From: Acidobacteriota bacterium
Lineage (GTDB): Bacteria; Acidobacteriota; Terriglobia; Versatilivoradales; Versatilivoraceae
NCBI GenBank assembly: GCA_022826755.1
Contig: JAJDUG010000055.1
Span: 1-64,000, forward strand
Direction: 5' to 3'
Length of the DNA stretch: 64,000 bases
Below, piece after piece: positions 3,938-38,504 of this stretch (positions are counted from its first letter, which is position 1; each line of letters opens with the position of its first letter). The notes under the pieces were generated by a model. That model worked only from the letters and a program-made list of their open reading frames with translations. It ran no database searches and was not told where the DNA came from. Both the position numbers and the translations under genes were made by a program.

Positions 3938-3953
3938 CTAGCCCGCATATCTC
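3938..3953. repeat. Left arm of inverted repeat flanking the group II intron
   Basis: CTAGCCCGCATATCTC here is the reverse complement, with one mismatch, of GAGAAATGCGGGCTAG at 5971-5986. With the intron removed the two arms would lie about 50 bp apart and form a palindrome. It may be the end of a small insertion element or a terminator-like hairpin. Confidence 0.6.
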
Positions 3954-4090
3954 GCCAGGTCGCACCCCCTGGGTAGAGTCGAGGGGAGGCGCGCCTGCCT
4001 TAGATCGAGGGAGTCGCTGTTGCCGGCGGCTTTCGCCACTCGCCGGTGCCTCAATCTCGCTCTTAGCCGCGTTTCCTCGCCCCCGCTCGT

Positions 4091-4125
4091 CAAACCGGAC
4101 GTGCCGTTTTCCGGCATCCGGCTTT
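4091..4125 (-). ncRNA. Group II intron domain V
   Basis: The minus strand reads AAAGCCGGATGCCGGAAAA then CGGCACGTCCGGTTTG. This is a hairpin with lower stem AAAGCCGGA/TCCGGTTT, the catalytic AGC triad, a two-base bulge and a GAAA tetraloop. Size and layout match the ~34-nt catalytic domain V, and it lies just 3' of the reverse transcriptase stop as expected. Confidence 0.88.
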
Positions 4126-4134
4126 CAGTCGGGA

Positions 4135-5493
4135 TCATGCCTTCGCCCACGGAAAGCTCTTCGTCCTCGTCACCAGGCGAGTCAGGCCGTACTGCTGCCA
4201 CAGCCGCTCGTCCGGAAAGCGCACCGTTTCCCCGGACCTTACCTTGTGCCGCCGACAGAGCCACTGTCGCAGCCGCCGACTCGCGTGGCGATCGATCGCT
4301 CGATAGGCCGGGCTCACCTGCCCCAGGTTGAAGTAGTTGGCCCACCCCGTCATCATCCGGTTCAGGCCCTCTACCATCTGGCCCGGCAACAGAATCCCAT
4401 TCCTCGGCGCCGTCCACTCGCTGATCTTGCGGCAGATGCCTTGAACGCTCGCCGGGCTGGGTCGGGTCCCGATGTAGGCCCCCTTCCCCTTATGGCGATA
4501 GTTGCGTCCAATCCGGTATCCCAGAAACTCCAGCGCTTCCTCCGGACACCGCAAGCATCGGGTCTTCCGCTCGTTGACCGGTAGCTTCAACTCCTCCATG
4601 ATCCGCTTGACCGCCTCCAGCATCTCTGCCCCGGCAGCCTTGCCCACCACACAGAAGTCATCCGCATAGTTGACGATCTCCCCGCGGAAGCGCCGGGCAT
4701 ACCCCAGCACCTTCCAGCCCAACACGAAGCGCCTCATGTAGAGATTGCTCAGCAGCGGTGAGATCGGGGCTCCCTGCGGCGTCCCCTTCCGCTGCCTCCG
4801 CCCACGGTTCCGGCGGCGCTTGCCTCCTTTCCCGTCGTCCTCCTCCACCGGCATCTCCAGCCATGCCTTGATCCACTTCAGCATCCTCCCGTCACTCACC
4901 CGACGGGCAACGCTCTCGATCAACTCCGCATGCGGTATCTCGCCGAAGTAGTTGGTCAGATCTCCGTCGACTACCTCGTGGTGTCCCCTCTCCAGGAGCC
5001 CACGCACTCGGCCCACTGCGTCTTTGGCACTCCGCCCCGGTCGATAGCCATACTGCTCCGGTTGCAGGTCCGCTTCAAAGATCGGCTCCAACACCAACAA
5101 CGCCGAACTCTGCGCTACCCGGTCCCGTATGCACGGTATGCCTAACGGCCGATACTTCCCAGGCTGTTTCTTCGGGATCAGTACCTGCCTCACCGCCTTC
5201 GGCTCGTAGGTCCCTTCCCTCAGGTCCCGCGCCAGTTCCCCCAGCCAGCCCTCCACTCCCTGCGCCTCGATGTCCTTGAAACTCTCCCCGTCCACCCCGG
5301 CCGATCCGCCATTACCACGGACCCGATCCCAGGCTTCCCTCAGAAAGTCCTTCCGCCACACCTTGTCGGCCAGCGCGTGAAACCGCCGCTTGGGGTCCTC
5401 CTTCGCTTTCGCATGCAGCACGGTCTGGAGTTTCCGAACCCGCTCTGACCCTGTTAGACCTCTGTCAGTGGCCACGCCCTGCCTCCATTCCAT
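4135..5493 (-). CDS. ltrA: Group II intron-encoded reverse transcriptase/maturase
   Basis: A 452-aa protein for reverse transcription and intron splicing. An N-terminal segment (GNGGSAGVDG, about residue 60) and RT blocks (IPKKQPGKYRPLGIP, GDLTNYFGEIPH, GTPQGAPISPLLSN) precede the catalytic motif NYADDFCVVG near residue 276. The C-terminal part (residues 350-450) is the maturase/GIIM domain, with the conserved pattern GLNRMMTGWANYFNLG. There is no obvious HNH endonuclease domain after it. The ATG at 5493 opens MEWRQGVATDRGLTGSERV, a typical family start. The gene lies inside intron domain IV, with domain V directly downstream. It appears full length. Confidence 0.95.
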   Translation of the reverse strand: MEWRQGVATDRGLTGSERVRKLQTVLHAKAKEDPKRRFHALADKVWRKDFLREAWDRVRGNGGSAGVDGESFKDIEAQGVEGWLGELARDLREGTYEPKAVRQVLIPKKQPGKYRPLGIPCIRDRVAQSSALLVLEPIFEADLQPEQYGYRPGRSAKDAVGRVRGLLERGHHEVVDGDLTNYFGEIPHAELIESVARRVSDGRMLKWIKAWLEMPVEEDDGKGGKRRRNRGRRQRKGTPQGAPISPLLSNLYMRRFVLGWKVLGYARRFRGEIVNYADDFCVVGKAAGAEMLEAVKRIMEELKLPVNERKTRCLRCPEEALEFLGYRIGRNYRHKGKGAYIGTRPSPASVQGICRKISEWTAPRNGILLPGQMVEGLNRMMTGWANYFNLGQVSPAYRAIDRHASRRLRQWLCRRHKVRSGETVRFPDERLWQQYGLTRLVTRTKSFPWAKA

Positions 5494-5950
5494 GCCGCTC
5501 CCAACTCAAGGCCCCTTCCCTCCACGGACATTACTCCGCTTCTACGGTACTACGGGCCTCTCCGCCACCCTGCAGGCCCGGTCTGCCCCTCCCGGGGTCC
5601 CGGTTTGGTGTGTGCCTCCCCTCCTGCAGGGCTTCCCGTGTTGCCACCTTCTTCCTCTTCCATGCGTGCCGACGTCACTACCCCGGCGGGTCCACAAGGG
5701 TGCACGTGTCGCTCGCTTCCCCCTCCGGCTCCGGCCTTCCCCATATCTCAGGTGGGTCGGCTCCCACATCGCCCGTTTCGAGGCCTGCTCGACGTTCACT
5801 CGCGTTCCGGCCCGCATGGTCGCTGAACCGCCTCAAGCGGCCCTTTGACACCAAGGAGCTTCAGACCATATCGTTGCCTCCATGATCCGCCCTGGCTGCT
5901 ACCAACCGGAGCGACAGTTGTTGGACGGGTTTCGCACCCGTTAGAAGAAG

Positions 5951-5967
5951 GCGCCTTTCCACGGCGC
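5951..5967 (-). terminator. Hairpin downstream of trbB, possible Rho-independent terminator
   Basis: On the minus strand GCGCC-GTGGAAA-GGCGC is followed by CTTCTTCTAA. It lies 16 bp after the trbB stop and 13 bp before the intron 5' end. The U tract is interrupted, so termination strength is uncertain. It would end the trb transcript and may be the structure the intron targeted. Confidence 0.5.
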
Positions 5968-5970
5968 ACT

Positions 5971-5986
5971 GAGAAATGCGGGCTAG
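5971..5986. repeat. Right arm of inverted repeat flanking the group II intron
   Basis: GAGAAATGCGGGCTAG, partner of 3938-3953. The trbB stop codon (5983-5985) lies inside this arm, so the repeat touches the end of the coding sequence. Confidence 0.6.
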
Positions 5987-6948
5987 TGTTCTGTCCGAGG
6001 CTGTCCTCTCCAAATGGTCTTCACGTCCCAGCAGTCAGTGGCGGCATCGTAACCCTCTACAAACAGGGCCTCCTCCGCAAACCGCAAACCCTCGTACCGC
6101 GTCATCTGAACCACCATGCGGACCCCGTCGACGATGCTGCGGCAGGTCACGCTCCAGGGAAGCCGGCCGGTTGCCTGGGCGGCGCAACTGGCAAGCCTCG
6201 CCAGAGCCGTTTGGGCGCTATTGGCATGGATCGTCGTCAACGACCCGCCGTGGCCGGTATTGAGGGCTTGCAAGAGGTCCGCGGCTTCCCCGCCGCGGAC
6301 CTCGCCCATGACGATGTGATCCGGCCGGTGGCGCAGCGCATGTCGTACCAGGTTCCGAATCGTCACCGTGTCCTTGAGTCCGCGAGCCTCGAATCGAAGA
6401 CAGTTGCTGCGTTGAATGCGCAACTCCAGCACATCTTCTATGGTGATAATGCGCTCGTTCTCGGGCAACAAGCCGATCAGAGCATTGAGAAGGGTCGTTT
6501 TTCCGCTCCCGGTCCCTCCGGACACCAGGATGTTCTGGCGCGCCCGCAGCGTATTGGCGGCTTCATGCAGAATCTCTTTGGCCAATACACCCTGGCGCAC
6601 CAGATCGTCCGTCGAGAAAGACCGCCCCCCGAAACGCCTTACCGTGATGGCTACAATCGGACTGGCTGGAGGCATGCAGATCGCCACCCGGGAGCCATCG
6701 TCCAGCCGGGCATCCACCAGGGGCGAGAGAGCGGGATCCAGGCCCAGGGGACGAGCAATATGGATAGCGGCCCGCCCCAAGGCTTTGGAATCGAGGTCCG
6801 GCGCCGGCCAAGGATCCAGTTGCCCATCCTTCTCGATCCAGACGTTGCCCGGACCGTTGATCATGATTTCGCTGACCTGCTGATCCTCAAGCGCCCTCTC
6901 CAGTCCCGGCAGCAAAGGCTTGAGCATTTCGATTCCACTGGCGTTCAT
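5983..6948 (-). CDS. trbB: TrbB, VirB11-family secretion ATPase
   Basis: A 321-aa hexameric traffic ATPase that energises pilus assembly and transfer at the inner membrane. Walker A GGTGSGKT lies near residue 144, followed by the Asp box ITIEDVLEL. Walker B HIVMGEVRGGEA lies near 213 and the His box HGGSLTTIHAN near 235. Length matches TrbB (about 320). It starts 29 bp after trbF and is the last gene of the operon, whereas trbB opens the trb operon of RP4 and Ti plasmids. The C terminus looks complete, although the stop lies within the inverted repeat that flanks the intron. Confidence 0.95.
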   Translation of the reverse strand: MNASGIEMLKPLLPGLERALEDQQVSEIMINGPGNVWIEKDGQLDPWPAPDLDSKALGRAAIHIARPLGLDPALSPLVDARLDDGSRVAICMPPASPIVAITVRRFGGRSFSTDDLVRQGVLAKEILHEAANTLRARQNILVSGGTGSGKTTLLNALIGLLPENERIITIEDVLELRIQRSNCLRFEARGLKDTVTIRNLVRHALRHRPDHIVMGEVRGGEAADLLQALNTGHGGSLTTIHANSAQTALARLASCAAQATGRLPWSVTCRSIVDGVRMVVQMTRYEGLRFAEEALFVEGYDAATDCWDVKTIWRGQPRTEH

Positions 6949-14155: not shown

Positions 14156-14181
14156 CAAGGCCACCTGTTGAGCAATGCGGG

Positions 14182-14475
14182 CTAGCGGAGATCCAGATAC
14201 CAGGGCGATTCGGTCCACTTGCCGGGGTCATACCGCACTTTGGATCGGGTTGCTTCCCGCAACAGGCTCAGCATTCTGGGATCCTGTTTCCAGGCCAGCC
14301 GGCCGGCGCCAAGCAGCAATGCCAGGACGAAGATCGCTGCCAGAAGGGAGTCGCCGGCATTCCAAAGCGCTACTGCCAGGGTCGCGCTCAGGAGAAACCA
14401 GCGCCGTTCCACACCCAGAATCATCAGCGGACGGCTCAAAACGGGGTAGCCGCTCCATCGACGTTTTCCCGTCAT
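14182..14475 (-). CDS. trbD: TrbD, VirB3-like inner-membrane protein
   Basis: A 97-aa small membrane protein with two hydrophobic segments (WFLLSATLAVALW and LLAAIFVLALLLGAG, about 25-60). The N terminus contains GYPVLSRPLMILGVERRWF, matching the VirB3/TrbD pattern. The C terminus has REATRSKVRYDPGKW. ATG 14475 lies 7 bp after the trbC stop. A TTG at 14493 would overlap trbC and is less likely. VirB3 partners the VirB4 ATPase, encoded next. Confidence 0.9.
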   Translation of the reverse strand: MTGKRRWSGYPVLSRPLMILGVERRWFLLSATLAVALWNAGDSLLAAIFVLALLLGAGRLAWKQDPRMLSLLREATRSKVRYDPGKWTESPWYLDLR

Positions 14476-38086: not shown

Positions 38087-38504
38087 CCTGTTTCGCCTTT
38101 CTCCATTCCTGTATTCGCCTGCCCGACCGGCACATCAGGAAGAACCGGATTTCTTTGCTTCCATGACGGCCTGGCGGCTAAAAAACCCATCAACCTTTTG
38201 CAAAATTCGGAATCAGCCATGACATTGGGGGCGGTAGAGGTGATGTTCTGCAGGTTCTGGCATCAACCACAAAAGGCACAAAATGAAATACGAGACTTGT
38301 CTAAGGGTGTTTTTGTGCCTTTTGTGGCCATCGAGGTACACAGCAGATCTGTTCCTCGATTGAGCTGCCCTCGCTCCCGACCCATAAATCCGTTGCCTGC
38401 AGAATTTTGCAAAAGGCTCCCATTACTCCATTCGTCCGTCGTGCCCCTTGGTGGATATCTTCTTTCCTTCGTGGATTGATCGGCGACGTTTCGAGGAATA
38501 GCGT
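38087..38504. other. Gene-free spacer with nested inverted repeats
   Basis: 418 bp between the PLP-enzyme stop and rmuC. It carries two nested perfect inverted repeats (annotated separately) and TTCGTGGAT-type strings near 38472. It should also contain the rmuC promoter. Confidence 0.6.
38194..38416. repeat. Nested palindromic element
   Basis: Outer arms CCTTTTGCAAAATTC (38194-38208) and GAATTTTGCAAAAGG (38402-38416) are perfect over 15 bp. Inner arms CCACAAAAGGCACAAAA (38267-38283) and TTTTGTGCCTTTTGTGG (38311-38327) are perfect over 17 bp with a 27-bp loop. All arms are AT-rich against a GC-rich background. The layout suggests a small palindromic repeat or MITE-like unit; the inner hairpin could also act as a terminator. 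Confidence 0.7.

Follow-up and report, generated by a model that had tools for sequence, protein, structure and literature searches.

A group II intron within the terminal inverted repeat of a shortened IS1380-type MITE beside trbB in an acidobacterial genome

Three specificities are known for bacterial group II introns, namely homing sites, terminators and attC sites (PMC4424553). The nearest analogue to the intron described here, as a mobile intron tied to an insertion sequence, is RmInt1 (class D/IIB3), which lies habitually in ISRm2011-2 of Sinorhizobium meliloti and may restrict how far that element spreads (PMC4238363); like our intron it has no endonuclease domain (class D, PMC3552965). 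In an IS630-Tc1 element, RmInt1 occupies the transposase gene, whereas ours occupies an inverted repeat in an IS1380-type MITE, which, unlike the RmInt1 host, carries the site at both ends and no transposase. In Pseudomonas putida, two of nine group II introns were tabulated inside REP palindromes (PMC1525189), likewise dispersed palindromic repeats, but the REPs are not described there as terminal inverted repeats (TIRs) of an IS family, and the table shows no lineage-wide homing. Group IIC and IIC-attC introns are similar to ours in the lack of an endonuclease, the short EBS1–IBS1, the EBS3–IBS3 pair, the undetected IBS2 and the association of the site with a palindrome (PMC4424553, PMC7923331). 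The present intron fits the homing specificity, its site being an IS1380/MITE TIR.

We read the locus, with a probability of about 0.9, as that of an endonuclease-less group II intron that retrohomed by sequence recognition into the TIR of an IS1380-type MITE beside trbB, the MITE being shrunken to 52 nt. The features, in coordinates of the window (the whole 64-kb stretch of DNA that was analysed), are as follows.

5983–6948, minus strand: trbB/virB11-like conjugation ATPase gene, its TAG stop supplied by CTAG at the MITE tip
5970–5986, minus strand: 5' exon, the left TIR tip CTAGCCCGCATTTCTCA of the MITE, containing the arm 5971–5986
5970–5974, minus strand: IBS1, TCTCA, the last 5 nt of the 5' exon
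3973–5969, minus strand: complete group II intron, 1,997 nt, 5' GTGCGCC ... CTCTAC 3'
5950–5969, minus strand: first stem of the intron, GTGCGCC-GTGGAAA-GGCGCC, intron nt 1–20, read directly and kept in relatives
5800–5943, minus strand: domain I core, Rfam group-II-D1D4-4 (RF02003), 77.8 bits, E 2.6e-15
5746–5750, minus strand: EBS1, UGAGA, intron nt 220–224
5678, minus strand: EBS3, intron nt 292
4135–5493, minus strand: intron-encoded RT/maturase, 452 aa, intact, with a YADD motif; TIGR04416, 331.6 bits
3973–4126, minus strand: domains V and VI, RF00029, 39.1 bits (slightly under the gathering score of 40), E 1.2e-5
3938–3972, minus strand: 3' exon, comprising the remainder of the left TIR (CCAGG), an 8-nt loop and the right TIR, and containing the arm 3938–3953

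Three independent lines of evidence agree on the intron ends at 5969 and 3973. Uninterrupted copies of the repeat, CTAGCCCGCATTTCTCACCAGG, read across TCTCA/CCAGG (the slash marking the exact junction), while the window reads CTAGCCCGCATTTCTCA, then the intron, then CCAGG, so that the interruption lies between TCTCA and CCAGG and both ends are fixed. Relatives of the intron have GTGCGCC...CTCTAC in common and diverge outside those ends, and the covariation of EBS1 with IBS1 and of EBS3 with IBS3 gives the third support; the RF00029 match, moreover, terminates exactly at 3973. A preliminary description had set the intron at 3973–5937, correctly at its 3' edge; on the minus strand the 5' edge is at 5969, 5937 being a second GUGCG internal to the intron, and the shorter interval is ruled out by the intact TIRs, the EBS1 covariation and the relatives. 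The same description noted a GC hairpin with a T-rich tail and suggested a terminator, but that hairpin is the first stem of the intron (5950–5969), leaving no terminator; nor does the hairpin of the empty site have, on either side, the T run of an intrinsic terminator. The imperfect inverted arms at 3938–3953 and 5971–5986 do pair at 15 of 16 positions, and the empty site does form a hairpin, although its length is 52 nt (17 nt at 5970–5986 plus 35 nt at 3938–3972) and not the ~84 bp first proposed. This near-perfect hairpin has an MFE of -39.2 kcal/mol in a 63-nt context, and the joined-exon fold has a z score of -6.5.

RT/maturase and ribozyme domain matches bear out the group II intron between the arms, which has what a mobile group II intron would be expected to have: domains V and VI with a bulged A (in domain VI, 7 nt from the intron 3' end), domain I with 5' GUGCG, a reverse transcriptase with an X domain, and EBS1–IBS1 covariation. 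From these sequence features it would be expected to splice and to move. The protein matches PF00078 and PF08388 only (RT and maturase X domain), with no endonuclease domain found in the profile search, and its closest solved protein is the GsI-IIC RT. In the domain V–VI region a basal helix covaries among 11 relatives, and an apical extension of domain VI (~55–65 nt) is found in the window intron and in the complete relatives examined, except for a planctomycete copy (L092) whose domain VI is compact and lacks it.

Exon pairing was assessed by covariation across 23–30 relatives. EBS1 was fully complementary to the final 5 exon nt at 22 of 30 sites, with varying exon bases, all other columns being at chance. 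The EBS3 position was Watson-Crick paired with 3' exon position +1 at 20 of 23 sites, in three pair types (next-best column, 16 of 23); that position thus covaries best with nt 292, and not with nt 219 beside EBS1 as in the delta-delta' pairing of group IIA. No IBS2 pairing stood clearly above shuffles in a scan of offsets 5–16 and widths 5–6. A short IBS1, the presence of IBS3 and no detectable IBS2 are features in common with group IIC introns.

The palindrome of the window is an internally deleted MITE with the TIR (CT)AGCCCGCATTTCTCACCAGG; matches to this TIR make the earlier suggestion of a MITE-like element exact, the element being derived by deletion from a MITE family of IS1380 type. 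The intact TIR, TCTCACCAGG, has 86 matches (42 + 44) in the window's own genome, and CTAGCCCGCATTTCTCACCAGG has 88 with ≤3 mismatches; the reversed control gave 0 in both searches. Each of the 7 genomes of the genus contains the TIR; the arm is abundant elsewhere, and the intron boundaries lie inside the arms. A perfect match to the TIR core TAGCCCGSATTTCTCAC was found in 36 of the 396 acidobacterial genomes that were sampled, against 0 for the control. Among 17 paired elements measured, 14 were 244–246 bp and three were 124–129 bp, the 52-nt window copy being the smallest member seen; the flanks, checked for target-site duplication, are often CTAG or TA without being constant. In another genus, a ~1.75-kb element (L216) has the same TIR at both ends and encodes an IS1380-family transposase (NF033539, 379 bits), so that the TIR TAGCCCGSATTTCTCACC is common to an autonomous IS1380 element and to the MITEs of the window's own genome, of which the window copy is an intron-split example. 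No autonomous IS with this TIR was found inside the own-genome loci examined, the autonomous element coming from the different genus, and a literature search for the TIR sequence gave no match.

Several other repeats were seen in passing. The window has a further solo TIR-like copy, CTAGCCCGCATTGCTCAACAGG, at 14164–14185 on the minus strand, and at 38192–38418 another MITE-like palindrome, of a different type, with nested inverted repeats whose outer arms lie around TTTTGCAAAATTC and whose inner arms are CCACAAAAGGCACAAAA...TTTTGTGCCTTTTGTGG. Contig ends of the own genome (L016, L021, L022, L034, L035) carry a different multi-copy element ending in CTAGCCCGCATTATGCGCGAAGG, which has only its outer 12 bases in common with the MITE TIR. 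In a complete sister genome (G001:C1), TIR copies lie ~3.4–4.1 kb apart near 889388–896810, 3799956–3807600 and 4111798–4119532.

The trbB stop does lie inside one arm, as had been noticed (TAG at 5983–5985), while trbB orthologues end in a different short tail, mostly ...AVRNAG before the stop. Intron-free sites were found at the orthologous trbB loci of five sister genomes. The MITE is missing too in G001 and G004; in G005 it is present at full length at the same place (L222); and G003 and G006 show no more of it than a right-TIR-like remnant joined to the end of trbB. MITE and intron thus occur together at trbB only in the window, the other loci showing no MITE, a full MITE or a remnant. 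The C-terminal tail of the sister trbB genes (AVRNAG and stop, from AGAAATGCGGGMTAG; L220–L224) resembles the right MITE end, and may stem from an earlier MITE end that the gene has incorporated. Because the intron is located past the trbB stop, splicing is dispensable for trbB; because it splits the TIR, the MITE should be immobilised while the intron is present.

In the sequence of events that we propose, the non-autonomous IS1380-type MITE would have inserted just downstream of trbB and shrunk there to a 52-nt double-TIR hairpin. The lariat RNP would then have reverse-spliced into the TIR after UGAGA–TCTCA pairing, presumably aided by a motif farther out in the 5' exon (around positions -16 to -8) that the intron protein probably reads; lacking an endonuclease domain, that protein would have depended on replication-fork priming. 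A variant with the same mechanism and another order of events has the intron enter one TIR of a full-length MITE, later deletions bringing the second TIR beside the 3' exon. The full-length MITE at the same place in G005 and the presence of the homing site in both MITE TIRs speak for this variant, but the 3' exon CCAGGGGGTGCGACCTGG looks like any short derivative of the MITE, and a 29-bp match to its right half occurs at G000:C27:5350–5378. None of the sister loci decides the order, and we give the palindrome-last order a real chance while judging it the less probable of the two.

The same TIR tip holds introns in G000 (three), G001, G002, G003 and G005, and TIR-tip-like intron sites occur in further acidobacterial genera (L162, L165, L170, L171, L172, L181) and in a Longimicrobiales genome (L088); two loci (L089 and L098) have the related sites CTAGCCCGACTTTCGC. 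TIR-tip matches were found at 6 of 29 intron sites tested, compared with 186 of 200,000 random positions from the same loci, a background that is if anything overstated, several loci having been chosen for holding the TIR. Such sites are a minority, other intron groups using other repeats or unique sites, among them the homing groups GTTATCCACGAAGACACA and GTTATTCCAGTAATTCA. In a tree of 5' regions, to be taken as a guide only since the fragments are short and partly truncated, the TIR-tip introns spread over several lineages, the deepest one (L162, L092, L170) among them. Judged by site sequences, then, the IS1380-type TIR tip is a recurrent homing site, used by several intron lineages across a number of acidobacterial genera. 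That the whole intron family adopted this conserved tip as its ancestral homing site is a more tentative proposition, to which we would give slightly less than even odds. A sister intron group (L002, L004, L005, L007, L008, L047, L048, L054) lies in ...GTTATCCACGAAGACACA/CGAAGG..., which is likewise dispersed and is the second repeat to serve as a homing site.

A different possibility is that a group IIC-like intron recognised a DNA hairpin, whether a terminator or an attC-like stem-loop, rather than TIR sequence. It agrees with the missing endonuclease domain and the GsI-IIC likeness of the RT, with the short EBS1 and undetectable IBS2, and with the strong hairpin of the empty site, and a second intron copy (L057, G001:C1, about 1966243) also sits within a hairpin, GCCAGCCCCAATGTATTACA/TTGGGTAGGCTGGC. 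The insertion in the window, however, lies within the stem and not just 3' of it, as it would at a terminator or attC hairpin. When 5' exons and joined exons of 24 sites were folded and compared with shuffles, only one straddling site (L001) and a few others were notable; most relatives' sites had no hairpin upstream of or across the junction, and their 5' exons folded no better than shuffles, which speaks against general hairpin targeting. The 5' exons of relatives have instead a longer conserved sequence, a TA(G)CCCGA-like motif around -16 to -8. Since most of these sites are hairpin-free, it is probably the sequence and not the palindrome that is recognised; the idea that the intron had targeted a terminator fails on the same ground, as well as on the intronic nature of the T-tailed hairpin and the missing T run. 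Domain V of group IIC introns usually carries CGC, whereas that of the window intron carries AGC. We consider hairpin recognition unlikely. At L168 (G067:C81) an intron-free palindrome, TAGCCCTGATTTCTCAGTGCGCCACGAAAAGGCGCACTGAGAAATACGGGCGG, was observed, the arms of which include the first intron bases.

The arms by themselves prove little, as inverted 16-mer pairs matching at 15 of 16 positions within 2.5 kb are no rarity in a stretch of 64 kb (31 pair positions observed, with many overlaps, versus 1–12 in six Markov controls); they are real through their identity with the dispersed TIR. The reading of the arms as an inverted repeat that arose by chance and has no relation to the intron, which that count would allow, is refuted by the 88 genome matches against 0 in the control and by introns at the same base elsewhere, and has next to no probability left.

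The components of retrohoming into a MITE end are all known, and the IS1380-TIR homing niche appears undescribed in the literature searched, where a text search found no report, by title or abstract, of IS1380 associated with a group II intron. The locus offers an exactly bounded retroelement lying within the end by which a DNA transposon is recognised, and its sister loci give successive states. It would make it possible to test directly whether introns that lack an endonuclease recognise their sites by sequence or by the shape of the DNA, and whether introns hold MITE expansions in check or profit from them. The IS1380 TIR site family occurs across Acidobacteriota. If the more tentative proposition on the whole intron family is true, this homing niche would stand alongside terminators and attC sites: the IS1380 family and its MITEs would seed landing sites, two per element, and introns would block those ends.
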